In this document: piece by piece, positions 6,534 through 21,881 of the stretch
Layout: every line of letters starts with the position of its first letter
Position numbering within the stretch: position 1 is the stretch's first letter
IMG/VR virus record: IMGVR_UViG_3300030060_001137
Location: 1,213-26,426 of that record
Source of the DNA: a virus
Length of the DNA stretch: 25,214 bases
Strand: one strand, 5' to 3'
Translations under genes and position numbers: made by a program
The notes under the pieces: generated by a model
Database searches by the model: none
What the model saw: only the letters and a program-made list of their open reading frames with translations
Told to the model about the DNA's origin: nothing

Positions 6534-6717
6534 GAAGTATCTTCTTGTAGAAGAATTTGATAATCTTGAGGATGCCAAGGATACAATGGAAGGTATGAAA
6601 CTATTATACTCTCATTTAAAATTCAATATTAAAAATTCTATACAAACACAATCTTCAGAATATTTTTCTGTTAACTCTAAACCACGTGCTTATTTTAAGA
6701 TGGTAGAAAAATTATGA
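6502..6717 (+). CDS. Hypothetical small protein
   Basis: The 71-residue product starts at ATG 6502 or the adjacent ATG 6505 and ends in an ATGA overlap with the cupin gene. The pattern YQILKKTYRKYLLVEEFDNLEDAKDTMEGMK resembles the small beta-alpha phage proteins that begin 'yrIlkk...F.sleeAk..me', but no named family can be given. There are no Cys and no membrane segment. Confidence 0.6.
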   Translation: MMYQILKKTYRKYLLVEEFDNLEDAKDTMEGMKLLYSHLKFNIKNSIQTQSSEYFSVNSKPRAYFKMVEKL

Positions 6718-7109
6718 AGCGAAGATGGGGAGAGTGGAAAGTTTTATCTTGTCGTACCCCTGACAATACCAAAGATGTACCCATTGTAAAAACCAAAGAG
6801 TTATATGTAGACAATGGTAAAAGTTTAAGTATGCAGCGCCATGAAGATAGAAGCGAGTTATGGTTTATTGCTGAAGGAACTGCTACAGTCTATACGTTAG
6901 ACGAGGGCAGAACATTTAAAAAATTATTAGGGGTATATAATAAGTTTGACATGGTGATTATTCCATGCTATTCATGGCATCAGCTTGTCAACGAAACTAA
7001 AAAACCTTTAATAGTTATTGAAATACAATACGGAAATAGATGTATTGAAGAGGACATTGAAAGGTTTGATGACTATGTATCACCACCACAAAGAAGTAAC
7101 GATTGTTAG
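6714..7109 (+). CDS. Mannose-6-phosphate isomerase-type cupin (type II PMI C-terminal domain)
   Basis: The 131-residue product matches the C-terminal isomerase domain of type II phosphomannose isomerase/GDP-mannose pyrophosphorylase, which interconverts fructose-6-P and mannose-6-P. The family opening RRWGEWKVL (3-11), KELYVDNGKSLSMQRH (28-43), the cupin metal ligands Q41, H43, E48 and H89, G55, P84 and the ending VIEIQYG...EEDIERFDD (101-120) are all visible. Motif 2 has Tyr86 where PxG is usual. The nucleotidyltransferase half is absent, so this is a standalone isomerase domain. It overlaps the primase-helicase start by 41 bases. Together with Gmd at 11866 it implies phage handling of GDP-mannose-derived sugar. 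An alternative is another sugar-binding cupin. Confidence 0.82.
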   Translation: MKRRWGEWKVLSCRTPDNTKDVPIVKTKELYVDNGKSLSMQRHEDRSELWFIAEGTATVYTLDEGRTFKKLLGVYNKFDMVIIPCYSWHQLVNETKKPLIVIEIQYGNRCIEEDIERFDDYVSPPQRSNDC

Positions 7110-11632: not shown

Positions 11633-11866
11633 ATGCTAATGGGTGTAGTTGCGTTAATGTTAAGCTTCTTTGTAGAAGTAGATGATAAATTCATAGCCAA
11701 TGCTTCCGAGAAAATAGAACAAGGATATAGCTGGGAGTATATTGGAAGAACCGAGTGGGATGAAACAAAAGGTCCAGCAATGTATCTAAAGACAGATGTA
11801 GATAATAAGTTTGTCTATTTTAAATTAGTAAAACAGGATGGTCCTGCTTCAGAGTCTCAAGAATAA
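11633..11866 (+). CDS. Hypothetical protein with hydrophobic N-terminus
   Basis: The 77-residue product has a short hydrophobic N-terminus ([16 protein letters not shown]), too short for a confident transmembrane helix but possibly a membrane anchor. A polar region follows with [13 protein letters not shown] and [10 protein letters not shown]. The initiation site GGAGAATATAAATG is identical to that of the SSB gene. Its stop overlaps the gmd start (TAATG). No family is recognised. Confidence 0.6.
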
Positions 11867-12897
11867 TGAAGACAGCTTTAATCATAGGTGGGTCAGGACA
11901 AGATGGATATTACCTAGCACAGTTACTTTTAAATAAAGGTTATCATGTACATTCTCTTGTTCGTAGATCGTCGGTAGATAACTTCACCAGAATTAATCAG
12001 TTAGAAAGCAAAGTAAATTTTGTTACATCTTATGGAGATTTAACTGAGACATCAGGATTGCTTAGAATAATTAAAGAAGTTAATCCTACGGAGATATATA
12101 ATCTTGGTGCACAGTCTGATGTAAGAATATCTTTTGACATTCCTGAATACACAGGTGATGTAGATGGGTTAGGTACAACTAGGTTACTAGAATGTATTAG
12201 AACTTTAGGAATGGTAGATACCTGTAAATTTTATCAAGCATCTACTTCAGAACTGTACGGCAAAGTTCAAGAAGTTCCTCAAACAGAAGAGACACCCTTC
12301 TATCCTCGCAGTCCTTATGGTGTAGCAAAACAATACAGTTACTGGATGGTTAAAAATTATAGAGAAGCTTACAATTTGTTTGCCTGTAATGGTATTCTTT
12401 TTAACCATGAGTCTCCTATGCGAGGAGATAATTTTGTCACACAGAAAATTGTTAAAGGTGTGATAGATATTATGTTTGGAAAAAAGGATAAACTTACAGT
12501 AGGGAATCTTAATGCTAAACGTGATTGGGGACATGCTGCCGATTACGTAAAGGGAATGTGGTTGATGATGCAGCAAGATAAACCTAATGATTATGTCTTA
12601 GCCACAGGCAAAACTCATTCAATAAAAGAATTGATTGAGTATGGTTTTAATAAATACATAGGTGTTCAACTACAATGGGAAGAGGAAGGAGTGAATGAAA
12701 TAGGGTTTGACATTAAAGAAAATTCAGAGTATAAAGGTGTTCTAGTAAATTGTTCTCCTGAGTTTTATCGCCCAACAGAAGTTGACTTATTGCTAGGTGA
12801 TCCTACTAAGGCAGAAAAAGAACTGGGATGGGAAAGAGAATATTCTTTCCATGATTTAATTGATGAAATGTTTGAGTATCAACTAGAAAGGAATTAA
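11866..12897 (+). CDS. gmd: GDP-mannose 4,6-dehydratase
   Basis: Gmd converts GDP-mannose to GDP-4-keto-6-deoxymannose, the precursor of GDP-fucose, GDP-rhamnose and GDP-perosamine. The 343 residues (E. coli 373) form an extended SDR enzyme. Visible are the NAD(P)-binding [11 protein letters not shown] (8-18, GxxGxxG), YNLGAQSDV (78-86), [16 protein letters not shown] (126-141), the catalytic YGVAK (151-155, Y and K), [10 protein letters not shown] (178-187) and later [15 protein letters not shown] and [12 protein letters not shown]. All catalytic elements appear intact, so an active enzyme is likely. It is placed among replication genes rather than in a sugar cluster, so it was probably acquired separately from the glycosyltransferases at 17.8-20.9 kb. 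Confidence 0.95.
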
Positions 12898-14725: not shown

Positions 14726-15040
14726 ATGGATAGAGATAAAGAGATTGCACAATTATATGCATCTCTTCCAAACTTTAAGTTTGATGAAGATGAGTATGTA
14801 GAAGAGATAAGAGACTACGTTACTTCTACTTATAAAGAGCATTATGCTAAAGGTAAATATCAAGCCACAGATATTATTTTAGATAGTGGTCATGGACAAG
14901 GATTTGTTATGGGTAATATATTGAAATACTGGAAAAGATATGGAAACAAAGAAGGAAAAAATAGGAAGGACTTGTTAAAGATTATTCACTATGCGATAAT
15001 CATGCTTTATGTCCACGATCATATCACCAAAGGAGTTTAG
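14726..15040 (+). CDS. DUF3310-like protein
   Basis: The 104-residue product (ATG 14726 with TAGGAG upstream) carries the DUF3310-like pattern: KEHYAKGKYQATDIILDSGHGQGFVMGNILKYWKRYGNK, then KDLLKIIHYAIIML, matching 'hY..g...e.idii...g...GNi.KYl.Ryg.K....DL.Ka..y'. This family is widespread in phages. I recall a link to T7 gp1.7 (a nucleotide kinase), which would suit the neighbouring ribonucleotide reductase, but that link is uncertain. Its last codons carry AAAGGAG, the ribosome site of nrdJ. Confidence 0.65.
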   Translation: MDRDKEIAQLYASLPNFKFDEDEYVEEIRDYVTSTYKEHYAKGKYQATDIILDSGHGQGFVMGNILKYWKRYGNKEGKNRKDLLKIIHYAIIMLYVHDHITKGV

Positions 15041-15044
15041 ATTT

Positions 15045-16730
15045 ATGCCCACCTTTCGTTCTAATGAAAATCCTATGTTCCGTTCTAAGTTTAGTGAAGA
15101 TATATTCAAACACAAGTATGCCCATCATGGTTGTGAAACATGGGCAAGTCTTGCATCTGTTCTCGTAGATGATGTTTGTTCTCTACATCTAACGCAAGAT
15201 GAAATAGATCAGTTAAAAGAATACATTACTGATTTAAAATTTATTCCCGGTGGAAGATATTTATACTATGCTGGGCGTCCTAATAAGTTTTTTAATAACT
15301 GCTACTTATTGAAAGCAGAAGAAGATACACGGGAAGATTGGGCAAACCTTTCATGGAAATCAGAATCATGCTTAATGACAGGTGGGGGTATTGGTGTAGA
15401 CTATTCAGTGTACCGTGAAGAAGGAAGAGTGTTGTCAGGTACAGGCGGTCTTGCCTCTGGTCCTATTCCTAAGATGATGATGATCAATGAGATTGGTCGA
15501 AGAGTTATGCAAGGGGGTAGTAGACGGTCAGCTATCTATGCCAGTATGAATTGGAAACATCCTGATATAAGAAAGTTTTTAGTAAGTAAGAACTGGTATG
15601 ATATGCCTGTAGGTACAACAGACTTTAGTATTGGTCAGATAAAAGAACAAGACTTTAACTTTGTTGCACCCTTGGACATGACTAACATAAGTGTTAACTA
15701 TGATACAGAATGGCTTTTAAATTATTGGGAGACAGGTGATGTTGGGGATACTTTTGCACAGAATACCAAACAGGCTTTACGAACAGCGGAACCGGGGTTT
15801 TCGTTTAACTTCTTTGATAAAGAAAATGAAACGCTTCGTAATGCGTGTACGGAAGTAACAAGTGATACTGGGGATGATGTATGTAACTTAGGATCAATTA
15901 ATCTTGGAAGGGTAGATACTCTCCAAGAGTTTAAAGATATCGTACAACTTGCCACTAAGTTTCTTATTTGTGGTACACTCAAAGCCAAACTACCTTACGA
16001 TAAAGTCTATGAAGTACGAGAAAAGAATCGTAGGCTTGGCCTTGGCTTGATGGGAATGCATGAGTGGTTAATTAAACGTGGGTCTAAGTATGAAGTTACA
16101 GAAGAACTTAATCAGTGGTTAGGAGTTTACAAAGGAGTTAGTGATGATACTTCTAAAAAGACTGCTGATGAAATGAATATTAGTAGACCAGTAGCTAACC
16201 GTGCTATTGCACCTACAGGTAGCATTGGTATTCTGGCAGGTACAAGTACAGGTGTAGAACCTATCTTTGCTGTAGCTTATAAGAGACGGTACTTAAAGGG
16301 TGGCACACGGTGGCATTACCAGTACGTAGTAGATAGTGCAGCACAAGAACTAATTGATTTGTATGGAACAAAACCAGAGAAGATTGAGTCTGCTCTTGAT
16401 CTAGCAGGAGATTATAAAAGACGAATAAAGTTTCAAGCTGATGTACAAGATTATGTAGATATGTCTATCTCTTCTACAATTAATTTACCAGCATGGGGAA
16501 GCAAATTAAATAATGAAGATACTGTTATGGACTTTACTCATACTCTTGCCTCTTACGCACATCGCTTACGTGGCTTTACTGTTTACCCTGATTCATGTCG
16601 TGGTGGGCAACCATTAACATCAGTTCCATATAATGAAGCGGTAGATAAACTAGGTGAAGAGTTTGAAGAAGGATTAGAGACACATGACATTTGTGATATT
16701 ACGGGACATGGAGGGAGTTGCGGAGTATAA
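15045..16730 (+). CDS. nrdJ: Class II (adenosylcobalamin-dependent) ribonucleotide reductase
   Basis: This enzyme reduces ribonucleotides to deoxyribonucleotides, using a cobalamin-derived thiyl radical. ATG 15045 follows AAAGGAG (15030-15036); a longer frame from 15009 overlaps the previous gene. In the 561 residues I see redox C86 (FNNCYLL), the active-site N266-x-C268-x-E270 (NACTEV), redox partner C280 (DVCNLGSINL), LGLGLMGMHEW (331-341), the phosphate-binding PTGSIGILAGTSTGVEP (390-406) and C-terminal cysteines C550 and C559. There is no ATP-cone and no NrdB gene in view, so class II is the better reading. It is shorter than L. leichmannii RTPR (739). The host would need cobalamin. Confidence 0.88.
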   Translation: MPTFRSNENPMFRSKFSEDIFKHKYAHHGCETWASLASVLVDDVCSLHLTQDEIDQLKEYITDLKFIPGGRYLYYAGRPNKFFNNCYLLKAEEDTREDWANLSWKSESCLMTGGGIGVDYSVYREEGRVLSGTGGLASGPIPKMMMINEIGRRVMQGGSRRSAIYASMNWKHPDIRKFLVSKNWYDMPVGTTDFSIGQIKEQDFNFVAPLDMTNISVNYDTEWLLNYWETGDVGDTFAQNTKQALRTAEPGFSFNFFDKENETLRNACTEVTSDTGDDVCNLGSINLGRVDTLQEFKDIVQLATKFLICGTLKAKLPYDKVYEVREKNRRLGLGLMGMHEWLIKRGSKYEVTEELNQWLGVYKGVSDDTSKKTADEMNISRPVANRAIAPTGSIGILAGTSTGVEPIFAVAYKRRYLKGGTRWHYQYVVDSAAQELIDLYGTKPEKIESALDLAGDYKRRIKFQADVQDYVDMSISSTINLPAWGSKLNNEDTVMDFTHTLASYAHRLRGFTVYPDSCRGGQPLTSVPYNEAVDKLGEEFEEGLETHDICDITGHGGSCGV

Positions 16731-17296
16731 TGCATACTTATTGTTGTTATAAGGAAGAGTTACCTAAAGAACTTTGTAAAGGTTTAGTCGATATAGGAAA
16801 ACAATTAAATAATGAAGAGGCTAAAGTCTTTAAAGAAGGTGATGATATTAAAATGCAAGAGGTAAGAAATAACCGTATTGCTTGGTTAGAAAATCCTGAA
16901 CTAACTAGTATCCTTCAACTGTATGCAGAGAAAGCTAATCAAGACGCTGGCTGGAATTTTAATATGAACTGTTATGAAACGCCGCAAGTTTCCTTCTATG
17001 GTAAAGGACAGTTCTATGATTGGCATATGGACACAGGGGTTGAAATGCCTTCTGATCCTTTCGTTAGAAAGTTATCACTAAGCATTACTCTTGATGATAG
17101 GTTTAAGGGTGGAGATTTTCAAGTTCAAGAATGGGTGCATCCTCAAGCCAGTAAAAAATTCTCTACTCTTAAAGATATGAGAAGGATAGGCAGCATTGTA
17201 GTCTTTCCTTCTTTTATTTTTCACCGTGTTACTAAAGTAAAAGAAGGTGAGCGGTGTTCGTTAGTCTGCTGGTTTCGAGGAGAAAAGTTTACCTAA
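16730..17296 (+). CDS. 2-oxoglutarate/Fe(II)-dependent oxygenase
   Basis: The 188-residue product has the double-stranded beta-helix oxygenase signature: iron ligands H99-x-D101 (YDWHMDTG) and H165 (FIFHRVTKV), with 2-oxoglutarate-binding R175 (GERCSLVCWFRG). GGDFQVQ (127-133) is also typical of the prolyl 4-hydroxylase/PKHD-like group. It would hydroxylate a protein, nucleic acid or small molecule; the substrate is unknown. ATG overlaps the nrdJ stop (TAATG), coupling it to deoxynucleotide synthesis. Cyanophages carry similar oxygenases. It ends the unit before the Hsp20 promoter. Confidence 0.88.
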   Translation: MHTYCCYKEELPKELCKGLVDIGKQLNNEEAKVFKEGDDIKMQEVRNNRIAWLENPELTSILQLYAEKANQDAGWNFNMNCYETPQVSFYGKGQFYDWHMDTGVEMPSDPFVRKLSLSITLDDRFKGGDFQVQEWVHPQASKKFSTLKDMRRIGSIVVFPSFIFHRVTKVKEGERCSLVCWFRGEKFT

Positions 17297-17843: not shown

Positions 17844-18581
17844 ATGAGCAGACTACCTACAGTTTATATTGGCTATGATCCAAAAGAAGATTTATATTAT
17901 AGAGTATTAGAGTATTCCTTAAGAAAACATTCTTCTTCTCCTCTTAATATAATACCTATTAAACAAGATAAAGTTAGACAAATAGGAATGTATTATAGAA
18001 CGGGTGTGTTGGATAATGGTCAAGAGGTAGATGTGTTTGATCGTAAACCCTTCTCTACTGAATTTAGTTTCACAAGATTTCTTGTTCCTTTTCTAAATCA
18101 GTTAGAGGGACAAGCAATCTTTATGGACTGTGATATGTTTGTACGTGAAGATATAATGGAAGTATTTGAACGAAGTATAATTGATCCTATCTATTGCGTC
18201 AAACATTCTTATGCACCTAATCATCAAACAAAAATGGACGGCAAGCCACAACAAAATTATTATAGAAAGAACTGGTCTAGTTTTGTTTTGTGGAACTGTG
18301 ATCATCCTCAGATTAAAGAACTTACCGTTGCAGATGTTAATGTAAAAGCAGGAAGCTGGTTACATTCTTTTTACTGGTGTGAAAATATTGGAAGCTTAGA
18401 GGAAAAATGGAATTGGTTAGATGGACATTCATCTGAAAGCATTCAACCTAGTGCGGTACACTTTACTACAGGTGGACCACTCTTTAGGAACTGGGAAGGT
18501 AACAGAGAAATTGATAATGAGTATGCAAAAGAATGGCAAAACTTATGCCATGAAATGAAACAAGAAGAAAGGCACACATAA
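17844..18581 (+). CDS. GT8-like glycosyltransferase
   Basis: The 245-residue product begins VYIGYDPKEDLYYRVLEYSL (7-26), the typical GT-A start of GT8-like enzymes. It has a metal-binding DxD motif at 95-97 (AIFMDCDMFVREDI), FTRFLVPFL before it, and AVHFTTGGPLFRNW near the C-terminus, which matches the second metal or nucleotide-sugar binding region. It would move a sugar from a nucleotide donor onto an acceptor; both are unknown. It is followed two bases later by the three-domain glycosyltransferase-like fusion, so the two probably act in one modification pathway with Gmd. Confidence 0.8.
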   Translation: MSRLPTVYIGYDPKEDLYYRVLEYSLRKHSSSPLNIIPIKQDKVRQIGMYYRTGVLDNGQEVDVFDRKPFSTEFSFTRFLVPFLNQLEGQAIFMDCDMFVREDIMEVFERSIIDPIYCVKHSYAPNHQTKMDGKPQQNYYRKNWSSFVLWNCDHPQIKELTVADVNVKAGSWLHSFYWCENIGSLEEKWNWLDGHSSESIQPSAVHFTTGGPLFRNWEGNREIDNEYAKEWQNLCHEMKQEERHT

Positions 18582-18583
18582 AT

Positions 18584-20872
18584 ATGGTTAATTTTGTTAC
18601 CTCTTTCAGTGGAAAGAACTATGATATATATGCTAAGAGCATGTTGGAATCTGTAATAACACATTGGGAAGATGATTTAAAATTAGTAGCTTACTATGAT
18701 TCATGTAGCGAAGAACAGTTAGCAGACTTTCCAAAATCTCCTTTGATAGAGTACAGAGATTTAGATTTAGTAGAAGATCGGACTGCCTTTCTTGACAGAA
18801 TGAAAGGACATGATGGTACAGAGAACGGTAATATAGAATACAACTGGCGGCTAGATGCTTTGAAGTGGTGCCATAAAGTTTATGCACTCACTGAATACTT
18901 TATGGAAATTTCTGATAATGAAGTTAAAGGTGGCTGGTTAATCTGGATGGATGCCGATGTTATTACCCACAGTAAACTTAATCAAGAAATTTTATTCAAG
19001 GCTTTTCCAAAAGACACAGAGTTAGTTCATCTTGGTAGAACAGATATAGACTTTAGTGAAACAGGTTTTATTGGTTTTAATTTGGACTATCAACTACCAC
19101 ATTATTATCTGGCAGACATACGTGGGTGTTATGATATTGGCGAAGTAGTAGCATATCGTGAGTGGACTGATGCATTTATTATGACCCGCTTTATTAATAT
19201 CTATGCTGCTCACGGCATGAAGGTTCACAACTTAACACCAGAAGCAAAAGGTTTAGCGGTCTTTGAACAGTCCAGTCTTAATGACTTTATGATGCACTAT
19301 AAAGGTAATCGTAAGAATGAAGTTCTGTCTGAACAAGGCTTTTCTCCTGATGTGGTACTGCCACGCTATGGACAACTAGCAACCTTGGTTCGTTTTTATA
19401 AACCAGAAAAGATTGTAGAGATTGGTACGTGGAATGGTGGCCGTGCAATTGAAATGGCACTAGCATCTTTTGAAAGTGTAGACAAATTTCATTACATAGG
19501 TTTTGATTTGTTTGAAGATGCTACTGAAGAGACAGATAAACTCGAATTAAATATTAAACAACATAACACTTACGATGCAGTGTTCAATCGTCTCACTGAA
19601 TTTACAGAGAAGATGGCTGAAAAGAGTAAGACATTTACCTTTAAATTGCACAAGGGTAATTCAAGAGATACTTTAAGCAAAGCTAAAAAAGAATTAAAGA
19701 AAGTTCCTTTCGCTTTTATTGATGGTGGGCATAGTGAAGATACAATTAAAAGTGATTATGATAACTTAAAACATATTCCGGTAATTGTCTTCGATGATTT
19801 TTATTCTAAGGATGAACATGGACATACTGTTTCCCAAGAAAAGGTAGGAGTAAATAAACTTATTAGGGATGAGATGGAAGGTAAACGTATGCACGTGCTA
19901 CCGTCTCAAGATAAAGTGTCGGGTGGTGGTCTTGTTCATCTAGCAGTTCTTCTTAATAATCCAGACCTAGAAGATATTCCTGTTGAACTAAGACGCATAC
20001 CTATTATCGTACACCCTAAAGATTGTGTACCTAAAGATGATATTGTAGAAAATATTAATGTTAATCTGAAACTCATTAAGAGTTGGGATACAGTTCAAAA
20101 TTATTATGGTAATAAAGAAGATGTTATCATAGTGTCTGGTGGTGGGTCAGTTGACTTTGAAGAAGTAAAAAGAGTACAAAAAGAAACAGACAGTAAAATA
20201 ATCTGTGTAAAGCATAGCTATCCTAAGCTTTTGCAAGCTGGTATAAAACCTTGGGGTTGTGTTATACTTGACCCTCGCACTATTGAAGGAGAAAGTACTC
20301 ACGGAATTGTACGTAAAAGTTTGTTTGAAAAGATTGATCCAAGCACACGATTTTTTATTGCATCTATGACCGAACCTTCGGTAACTGAGTATATAACAGA
20401 ACGAACCTCTAATGTGTATGGTTGGCACGCTTACTCTGAAGCAATTAAAAATAGAATTAATAATAAAAAGGATTACCCTGAAGAAGAACAGATACAAATT
20501 GATGGGGATATAACATTTGTAACTGGTGGTACGTGTGCAGCTATGAGAGCAATCGGAATGTTTCATGTCTTTGGATTTAGAAACTTTCACTTGTTTGGAT
20601 TTGATTGTTCTGTACCTCATGTAACAGAAGAAGAACAAAAAGAAACTCTCTTTGATGGTAAAGTAAAGTACATGAAAGTAGAAACTAATGAAAAAGAATT
20701 TTGGACTACAGGAGAACTACTCGCAATGGCACAAGATTGTGAACAGTTATTTGATGCTCCAAATATTGATATGAATGTAAACTTCTACACCTCATACGAT
20801 ACATTAGCTTCTCAAGTTTATCAAACATCTCGACATGGAAAAAAGAAATATTACCATACTGCTTTTAACTAG
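18584..20872 (+). CDS. Three-domain fusion: glycosyltransferase-like, SAM methyltransferase, DUF115/MptE-like
   Basis: The 762-residue protein has three recognisable parts. Residues 1-245 look like a GT-A glycosyltransferase: VTSFSGKNYDIYAKSMLESV at the start and a D123-x-D125 motif in WLIWMDADV. Residues 260-460 look like a class I SAM-dependent methyltransferase: IVEIGTWNGGRA (277-288), FAFIDGGHSEDTI (376-388) and VIVFDDF (400-406). Residues 470-700 match DUF115 (MptE-like, also in Maf flagellin glycosyltransferases): VIIVSGGGSVD (514-524), ICVKHSYPKLLQAGIKPWG with LDPR (540-565), and TGGTCAAMRAIGMF...FHLFGFDCS (647-676). No stop or frameshift interrupts it. A sugar-transfer and methylation role on virion or cell-surface glycans is inferred from the domains. 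Confidence 0.8.
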   Translation: MVNFVTSFSGKNYDIYAKSMLESVITHWEDDLKLVAYYDSCSEEQLADFPKSPLIEYRDLDLVEDRTAFLDRMKGHDGTENGNIEYNWRLDALKWCHKVYALTEYFMEISDNEVKGGWLIWMDADVITHSKLNQEILFKAFPKDTELVHLGRTDIDFSETGFIGFNLDYQLPHYYLADIRGCYDIGEVVAYREWTDAFIMTRFINIYAAHGMKVHNLTPEAKGLAVFEQSSLNDFMMHYKGNRKNEVLSEQGFSPDVVLPRYGQLATLVRFYKPEKIVEIGTWNGGRAIEMALASFESVDKFHYIGFDLFEDATEETDKLELNIKQHNTYDAVFNRLTEFTEKMAEKSKTFTFKLHKGNSRDTLSKAKKELKKVPFAFIDGGHSEDTIKSDYDNLKHIPVIVFDDFYSKDEHGHTVSQEKVGVNKLIRDEMEGKRMHVLPSQDKVSGGGLVHLAVLLNNPDLEDIPVELRRIPIIVHPKDCVPKDDIVENINVNLKLIKSWDTVQNYYGNKEDVIIVSGGGSVDFEEVKRVQKETDSKIICVKHSYPKLLQAGIKPWGCVILDPRTIEGESTHGIVRKSLFEKIDPSTRFFIASMTEPSVTEYITERTSNVYGWHAYSEAIKNRINNKKDYPEEEQIQIDGDITFVTGGTCAAMRAIGMFHVFGFRNFHLFGFDCSVPHVTEEEQKETLFDGKVKYMKVETNEKEFWTTGELLAMAQDCEQLFDAPNIDMNVNFYTSYDTLASQVYQTSRHGKKKYYHTAFN

Positions 20873-20890: not shown

Positions 20891-21130
20891 ATGCTAGAAA
20901 CCCTAAGTAGCAACAGTGAACTTATTATTTCTACACTCACAGGTATTATTGCAATCGCTAGTGTGTTTATTGCTGGCACACCTACCCCTAATCCTGATAC
21001 AATCTTAGGTAAAATCTACAAGGTTGTAGAATTTCTAAGTCTCACCATCGGTAAGGCTAAAGAGACAGGTAAAAAAGAAGAACCAGTTGAAGAAGTACCT
21101 GTAGTAAAAGGTAAGACAGAAAAGGTATAG
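20891..21130 (+). CDS. Small membrane protein, holin candidate
   Basis: The 79-residue product has one hydrophobic segment (about 11-29, LIISTLTGIIAIASVFIAG), a short amphipathic region (KIYKVVEFLSLTIGKAK) and a Lys/Glu-rich tail. GGAAAGGAA precedes the ATG. It sits directly before the spanin pair, a usual place for holins, which supports a lysis role. One-helix holins exist, but the fold alone does not prove it. No endolysin gene is seen in the window. Confidence 0.6.
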   Translation: MLETLSSNSELIISTLTGIIAIASVFIAGTPTPNPDTILGKIYKVVEFLSLTIGKAKETGKKEEPVEEVPVVKGKTEKV

Positions 21131-21354: not shown

Positions 21355-21457
21355 TTGGTCATTCCCAATTTTAATCAGTGATGCTGACTCTCTTTCCACC
21401 GGAACTGCTAGACAAGTATTAAGCCATAATCTTACATGGGAAAAATTTTGTGACTAA
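21251..21457 (+). CDS. Predicted o-spanin lipoprotein (Rz1-like), overlapping the i-spanin
   Basis: The 68-residue product has a lipoprotein signal (KLKTKLTGFLMLMFLSGC) with lipobox LSGC at 21-24. The mature part contains FCSWSFPILISDADSLSTGTA and QVLSHNLTWEKFC, matching a small phage lysis protein pattern (CsW..PI..s..D.Lt..Ta..il.HN....C) that I remember from similar overlapping spanin genes. It starts inside the i-spanin in the +1 frame and runs 103 bases beyond its stop. There is no clear ribosome site before ATG 21251, so translation may be coupled. The TAA overlaps the small-terminase start. Confidence 0.75.
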   Translation: MQRKEIKLKTKLTGFLMLMFLSGCGSVGGEAAFCSWSFPILISDADSLSTGTARQVLSHNLTWEKFCD

Positions 21458-21881
21458 GGAATTAAACCTTAAGCAGGAAAAGTTTTGCCAAGCCTATGTG
21501 CTATACCGTAACGCTACAGAGTCAGCTAAGATTGCTGGATACTCTGATACATCAGCACACACACAAGGACATAGGCTAGTCCAGCGTCCTGATATACAAG
21601 AACGTATAGAGGAATTAGAAAAAGAAATTGAAACTAATATTGATGTAGTAGCGGAGATTGAAAATCAATATACCTATGCCAAAAATAATGGTCATACTAA
21701 TAGCGCAATTAAAGCGTTGGAAGTTTTATCTAAGGTCAGAACATCTAAGGATGAAGAAGTTCCTAAATCAATTGTTGAACTAGAGGATGAGATAGTTAAA
21801 AATTTAGAAATTCTTGGAGAAGAAAGATCATCTAAGATTTTTCTCAAATGTCAGTGGTTTCAAGAGGAACAACCAGAATGA
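21450..21881 (+). CDS. terS: Small terminase subunit
   Basis: The 143-residue product has the terminase small subunit opening: LNLKQEKFCQAYVLYRNATESAKIAGYSDTSA, then HRLVQRPDIQERIEELEKEI. This is the helix-turn-helix that recognises the packaging site and leads into a coiled-coil oligomerisation region. The start is GTG 21450, inside the end of the o-spanin gene; no ATG fits. The large terminase subunit is not within the window, and the next gene is an HNH nuclease. Packaging genes are therefore split between this rightward unit and another part of the genome. Confidence 0.88.
   Translation: MTKELNLKQEKFCQAYVLYRNATESAKIAGYSDTSAHTQGHRLVQRPDIQERIEELEKEIETNIDVVAEIENQYTYAKNNGHTNSAIKALEVLSKVRTSKDEEVPKSIVELEDEIVKNLEILGEERSSKIFLKCQWFQEEQPE

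Follow-up and report, generated by a model that had tools for sequence, protein, structure and literature searches.

Can a single phage gene encode a glycosyltransferase, a methyltransferase and a relative of the Maf flagellin glycosyltransferases, and if so, what does its product make? This question was raised by a sequence-only reading of a stretch of 25,214 nucleotides (the window) from an IMG/VR virus record of 26,426 bp. A 762-residue frame was proposed to join these three domains behind a GT8-like gene and to contribute to a methylated glycan on the virion or host surface. Pfam profiles, fold search and the phage neighbour genes supported the three domains and the phage origin, and the coordinates, length and motifs quoted for the frame were all exact. 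In our main interpretation, to which we assign a probability of roughly 0.55, a cytosolic multifunctional enzyme and its GT8-like partner build a short O-methylated glycan, with a virion protein as its most likely carrier.

Table 1. Features of the fusion gene and its neighbours (window positions).
Feature	Position	Strand	Remarks
Mannose-6-phosphate isomerase-type cupin	6714..7109	+	PF01050, E=2e-15
GDP-mannose 4,6-dehydratase	11866..12897	+	PF16363, E=4.6e-135; possible supplier of a GDP-6-deoxyhexose donor
PKHD-type 2OG-Fe(II) oxygenase	16718-17296		Three genes before the fusion; PF13640, E=3e-13
GT8-like partner glycosyltransferase	17844..18581	+	245 aa; DxD MDCDM
Fusion gene	18584..20872	+	762 aa, ATG to TAG; GT-A, O-methyltransferase and MptE-like/DUF115 domains
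GT-A domain (predicted)	18584..19333	+	Residues 1-250; Foldseek
W-M-DAD (DxD)	18944..18958	+	Residues 121-125
HYKGNRK (HxKGxxK)	19295..19315	+	Residues 238-244
Class I O-methyltransferase domain (predicted)	19337..19963	+	Residues 252-460; Pfam, Foldseek
EIGTWNGG, SAM-binding motif I	19418..19441	+	Residues 279-286
FIDGGHS	19715..19735	+	Residues 378-384; putative metal/catalytic D380, H383
D404-D405, putative metal ligands	19793..19798	+	Alignment
MptE-like/DUF115 (Maf-type) domain	19970..20869	+	Residues 463-762; Pfam, Foldseek, HHalign
SGGGS	20135..20149	+	Residues 518-522; GGPS motif of the family, aligned to GPS in Maf
LDPR	20267..20278	+	Residues 562-565; aligns with DPH of Maf
GGTCAAMR...LFGFDCS	20525..20611	+	Residues 648-676; aligned with Maf
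WTTGELLAMAQDCE	20702..20743	+	Residues 707-720; phage-family signature, near-invariant in 181 homologs
One-TM protein directly downstream of the fusion	20891..21130	+	79 aa; hydropathy peak 2.27
Terminase small subunit	21450..21881	+	PF03592, E=2e-17

One continuous reading frame

The frame is open over all 762 codons with zero stops, and its start codon lies two bases past the stop of the GT8-like gene, confirming the spacing given in the sequence-only reading. Such a frame could be an artefact of assembly or gene prediction, or an eroding pseudogene. Erosion would fit the one internal stop in the fusion of the relative L138 and the disappearance of methyltransferase catalytic residues in some lineages. 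Against this stand 174 distinct complete sequences with glycosyltransferase (GT), methyltransferase (MT) and MptE-like domains from independent contigs, purifying selection and a constant gene neighbourhood. The full-length homologs checked first were free of internal stops in 31 out of 31 cases, and together with the 174 complete proteins they dispose of an assembly join of separate genes, a possibility raised at the outset. In close pairs, an excess of third-position changes in all three domains indicates purifying selection. Between the window gene and its relative L004, 97/33/321 changes were counted by codon position, those at the third position dominating. For the window gene the artefact reading is already refuted, and we give it practically no credence. 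In L138 (2588-4933) the single in-frame stop divides the protein into a GT-MT and an MptE part; its methyltransferase is degenerate and NTN takes the place of DxD.

Three domains in one protein

A first AlphaFold model, based on 23 close homologs, was discarded (pLDDT 47.9). The AF2 model obtained with 95 sequences had a mean pLDDT of 91.3 and a pTM of 0.61, the latter leaving the arrangement of the domains relative to one another uncertain. All three folds were recovered from this one full-length model. Foldseek against the PDB matched the whole model to GT-A enzymes, O-methyltransferases and, as the fourth-ranked match, 5MU5, the Maf glycosyltransferase of Magnetospirillum; phmmer with the fusion protein gave zero matches in the PDB. 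Among viral structures, the model matched A0A6J7X5Q0 best, followed by several phage proteins labelled 'MptE-like'.

Foldseek matches of the N-terminal domain were LARGE1, alpha-1,3-galactosyltransferase (GT6), glycogenin and XXYLT1, all of retaining types. The DxD motif is intact in 177 out of 181 homologs and reads NTN in 3. H238, K240, G241 and K244 of the HxKGxxK motif, which we take to be that of GT8-type enzymes, are nearly invariant across 95 sequences. The N-terminal 250 residues had no Pfam match. On the strength of the modelled fold, the DxD and the HxxGxxK pattern, this domain is a predicted GT-A glycosyltransferase of GT6/GT8-like type that falls under no Pfam family profile. In the subfamily comprising L162, L160, L241 and L138, the change of DxD to NTN goes along with loss of D380/H383 in the methyltransferase. 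Judged by these residues, this subfamily possibly carries two silent enzyme domains beside a conserved MptE-like domain.

The central domain matched PF13578 (Methyltransf_24) over residues 278-397 (E=3e-8, 34.9 bits against a cut-off of 26.3) and, weakly and below its cut-off, TylF (PF05711). Its Foldseek matches were the O-methyltransferases 5n5d, 3duw and 3tfw. D380 and D404-D405 align with the D..DN of COMT-type enzymes and presumably share its metal-binding role. Profile, predicted fold, motif I and the acidic metal set identify this domain as a putative class I SAM O-methyltransferase. Motif I and the acidic D..DD/DN set are common to it and to TylF/Methyltransf_24 and COMT-type enzymes, from which it differs in sitting between two other domains. 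Among the 174 MT-bearing homologs, D380 is present in 149, H383 in 141 and D405 in 136, and 136, among them the window protein, retain the full residue set. On a tree built without the methyltransferase columns, the domain or D380 was lost at least three times, and seven times if any of seven residues is counted. Since D405N may be harmless, COMT-type enzymes having DN, three is the cautious count. In the window's clade the methyltransferase is intact and under selection. From these alignments, we read the methyltransferase as an optional module and the GT-A and Maf-like domains as the likely core.

The third domain matched PF01973 over residues 487-677 (E=4.3e-15, 56.3 bits against a gathering cut-off of 34.6), as did all of the 36 family members tested. 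It is retained in all 181 homologs, and 64 out of 280 columns show at least 98% identity. LDPR is invariant in 180 out of 181 sequences, with one gap, and VSGGGSVD of the window protein is an unusual form, the third G being replaced by P in 92 out of 181 members. NCBIfam gave a weak match of residues 490-612 to PseD, a Maf-type flagellin modification protein. Because the match to 5MU5 was a long multi-domain alignment with an rmsd of 17.5 and no clean domain superposition, the relation to Maf was re-checked by sequence. The family profile of the third domain runs in register with 5MU5 at the GPS and LFG.D motifs (E about 1). HHalign to bacterial Maf proteins from genomes gave a probability of 89% over 242 columns, a span that includes the N-terminal helix and the GPS, DP and G.D motifs. 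The proposed DUF115/Maf relation is thus supported by the fold match and the profile alignment.

Ser/Thr residues of flagellin are O-glycosylated by Maf proteins, whose PF01973 domain is similar to the sialyltransferase Cst-II (PMC11339370). The fusion shares with the Maf family the central PF01973 domain with its GPS (GGS in the window), DP and G.D motifs, as well as the LGF...LFG.D motif in its C-terminal domain. In contrast, it does not have the Maf arrangement of a degenerate Rossmann N-domain, a central domain and a helical C-domain; GT-A and MT precede the PF01973 domain, only about 85 residues follow it, and the sequence similarity is remote. Maf proteins also come with nonulosonic-acid synthesis genes, whereas no NeuB or sialic-acid pathway was detected in 38 fusion contigs. 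Hence, nonulosonic acids, the usual donors of Maf, do not seem to be made by these phages, and the Maf link has to be corrected in that a NeuB sialic-acid-type pathway does not accompany the domain.

PF01973 was named for MptE, and the family holds both diphosphokinase and glycosyltransferase activities. The third domain could accordingly be a nucleotide-dependent diphosphokinase or nucleotidyl-type enzyme that, like archaeal MptE, prepares a substrate for the other domains by activation or phosphorylation, and the highly conserved blocks WTTGE...QDCE and VKHSYP, which are specific to the phage family, would leave room for this. We consider it unlikely, as the top fold matches include a Maf glycosyltransferase and the 242-column alignment with bacterial Maf proteins takes in the N-terminal helix and the GPS, DP and G.D motifs.

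Occurrence of the fusion

After duplicate removal our collection comprised the 174 complete GT-MT-MptE proteins and 7 GT-MptE proteins without methyltransferase, together the 181 homologs or loci referred to here, as well as 36 stand-alone homologs of the GT domain. Full-length identity to the window protein goes down to about 40%. The initial search found close relatives in more than 30 viral contigs, domain profiles drew in many more, and a scan using a diverse alignment detected relatives in at least 595 IMG/VR contigs.

Among 84,980 species genomes, the fusion was found at two loci only, both on viral-looking MAG contigs with phage ribonucleotide reductase (RNR) and holin genes, one of them also with terminase and structural genes. 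These phage-like contigs are labelled Sneathiella (L241, PAKP01000072.1) and Flavobacteriaceae (L242, PANU01000007.1). An occurrence in bacterial genomes was rejected: because phage genes are carried and PF01973 was not found in the other 25 genomes of one MAG host's order, both contigs are read as probably misbinned phages. The fusion was absent from 50,697 phage records, two of which have the GT domain alone, and across cultured phages and plasmids the GT-A domain occurred alone in 2 phages and 4 Rhizobium plasmids, again with no fusion. From the search of species genomes, the fusion looks virus-only. One stand-alone GT-A homolog (L239, 3263-4024 of MW202713.1) comes from a circular podovirus genome that was deposited without annotation; genes for a tibC-like glycosyltransferase and a methyltransferase are found close by.

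According to the sequence-only reading, the trio is not known as a described phage enzyme. This stood in so far as our literature search on DUF115/MptE in phages found no paper describing it. The trio is not unique, having hundreds of viral members, and database entries do exist, namely phage 'MptE-like' entries and a full-length homolog in UniProt/BFVD. The latter, A0A6J7X5Q0 of an uncultured Caudovirales phage (714 aa), aligns over 763 columns with 30% identity (E=3.8e-65) and apparently belongs to this three-domain family; its label, 'Methyltransferase domain containing protein', covers the methyltransferase only. The fusion represents a new, undescribed and widespread family of enzymes made of known folds, which is apparently virus-specific.

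The nearest characterised system is the chlorovirus protein A064R of PBCV-1, a GT-GT-MT protein whose O-methyltransferase acts on a deoxyhexose in the synthesis of methylated capsid N-glycans (PMC9614988). Like the fusion, it is one viral protein with two glycosyltransferase(-like) domains and an O-methyltransferase. It differs in domain order, GT-GT-MT against GT-MT-Maf-like, and in belonging to a eukaryotic giant virus. The likeness is one of function, and we take A064R for an analogue rather than a relative.

The partner gene and the genomic context

At 180 out of 181 loci, the gene immediately upstream of the fusion is a homolog of the GT8-like gene; this includes all 176 loci with at least 900 bp of upstream sequence (median alignment gap 32 bp). 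Next to stand-alone GT-N homologs it was found at only 1 out of 35 loci, namely Mosig_00189. From this difference it follows that the GT8-like gene belongs with the fusion as an obligate tandem partner, a link that the sequence-only reading had suggested. The Glyco_transf_8 profile did not match the window's partner and matched 20 out of 31 homologs weakly (E up to 0.1, best 2.9e-4). In the cultured Pelagibacter phage Mosig, the GT8-like partner and the N-terminal GT have neighbouring homologs, Mosig_00188 and Mosig_00189, which in contrast to the fusion are two separate genes in reversed order with no MptE-like domain. The methyltransferase genes beside Mosig_00189 were considered as an unfused version of the system and ruled out, since they are not homologous to the fused methyltransferase.

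The pair stands beside the terminase gene and borders on the structural genes; the small subunit lies downstream of the fusion at 167 out of 181 loci, with a median gap of 525 bp. Homologs of the 79-aa one-TM protein were present at 47 out of 181 loci. Neither the fusion nor the GT8-like protein has a transmembrane stretch. Phage genes of the window encode primase/helicase, DNA polymerase, thymidylate synthase, RNR, Hsp20, endonuclease I and a virion structural protein, and relatives also have a holin. The DNA polymerase shares 47% identity with those of Pelagibacter phages HTVC104P/115P. The GDP-mannose 4,6-dehydratase and the M6P-isomerase-type cupin encoded in the window speak in favour of the main interpretation. 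The dehydratase is encoded in 10 out of 38 large fusion contigs, all of the window's clade; as it is missing elsewhere, it is not a universal partner of the fusion. Defence-system models gave no match, promoter-like matches were at chance level and terminator-like matches within the shuffle range.

DNA is a frequent substrate of phage glycosyltransferases, and a 2OG-Fe(II) oxygenase gene two genes upstream of the GT8-like gene might suggest that glycosyltransferases and methyltransferase decorate modified bases of the phage DNA. This oxygenase matches PKHD-type hydroxylase families and has homologs near only 78 out of 181 fusion loci; no hydroxymethyl-pyrimidine synthase was recognised and the window encodes a thymidylate synthase. 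Methyltransferases of the Methyltransf_24/TylF type act on sugars and small molecules. Taken together, these points make a DNA hypermodification system very unlikely.

Proposed function

The fusion probably is a soluble, cytosolic glycan-assembly enzyme of lytic-type podovirus-like phages. In our main interpretation, the GT8-like partner and the GT-A domain would each add one sugar with retention (Mn2+/DxD), and the Maf-like domain would be an additional glycosyltransferase. Like Maf, which acts on Ser/Thr of flagellin, it is possibly the domain in contact with the protein acceptor. The methyltransferase may O-methylate one sugar of the glycan. In the window's clade this is plausibly a 6-deoxyhexose derived from GDP-mannose via the GDP-mannose 4,6-dehydratase that the phage itself encodes. 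This would yield a short O-methylated oligosaccharide, in which methyl capping would come last and be optional, some lineages having given it up.

Of this mechanism, the target is the least secure part. We favour a virion protein, presumably glycosylated in the cytosol ahead of assembly, since the enzymes are soluble and their two genes lie at the border with the packaging and structural genes. A scan of the ORFs of two relatives for S/T-rich acceptor regions gave nothing striking (at most 15 out of 30). The same chemistry could instead be directed at LPS or exopolysaccharide of the host, e.g. blocking re-adsorption or superinfection. Bacterial LPS is built by cytosolic glycosyltransferases of the GT8/GT6 type, and the weak profile matches of the GT8-like partner include the O-antigen enzyme WbbM. 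However, no neighbour of the fusion was recognised as a membrane or flippase component (GtrA/B-like), and the phages look lytic, with terminase, portal, DNA ejection proteins and holin, whereas superinfection exclusion via glycan remodelling is best known from temperate phages. We therefore regard a host-surface target as somewhat unlikely and retain the virion protein as the preferred one.

A more specific version, which we put forward as a tentative possibility, is a Maf-related, self-contained protein O-glycosylation system of podovirus-like phages, in which the MptE-like domain would place the first sugar on a virion protein while still in the cytosol, the GT-A domain and the GT8-like partner would extend it and the methyltransferase would cap it. 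If this is true, bacterial viruses possess an analogue of the chlorovirus capsid-glycan machinery. If the fusion glycosylates virions, phage-made methylated sugar coats would be common among uncultivated phages: the gene pair occurs in hundreds of virus contigs, yet no isolate with the fusion is among the phage records searched. Such a coating would bear on host recognition and on escape from surface-based defences. The repeated loss of the methyltransferase, with the other two domains kept, offers a natural comparison for the effect of methyl capping.

Further observations

In two relatives, the replication genes are common with HTVC115P and no recognised structural genes are shared; one of the two encodes terminase, portal, major head protein, internal lysozyme and DNA ejection protein. 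The combination of an HTVC115P-like replication module with structural genes lacking an HTVC115P match (L426/L429) may reflect module exchange between phage groups. The RNR-like protein of the window (15009-16730, 573 aa) has a Pfam match broken into three stretches and is only distantly similar to the HTVC115P RNR (25%). The RNR form of the two MAG contigs has 650-670 aa, with phrog_367 as its best match over the whole length. Another contig, IMGVR_UViG_3300025168_000039 (106,894 bp), carries two different cassettes of GT8-like gene and fusion near 43.5 kb and 98.7 kb (L023, L345), possibly because two phage genomes were joined in assembly.
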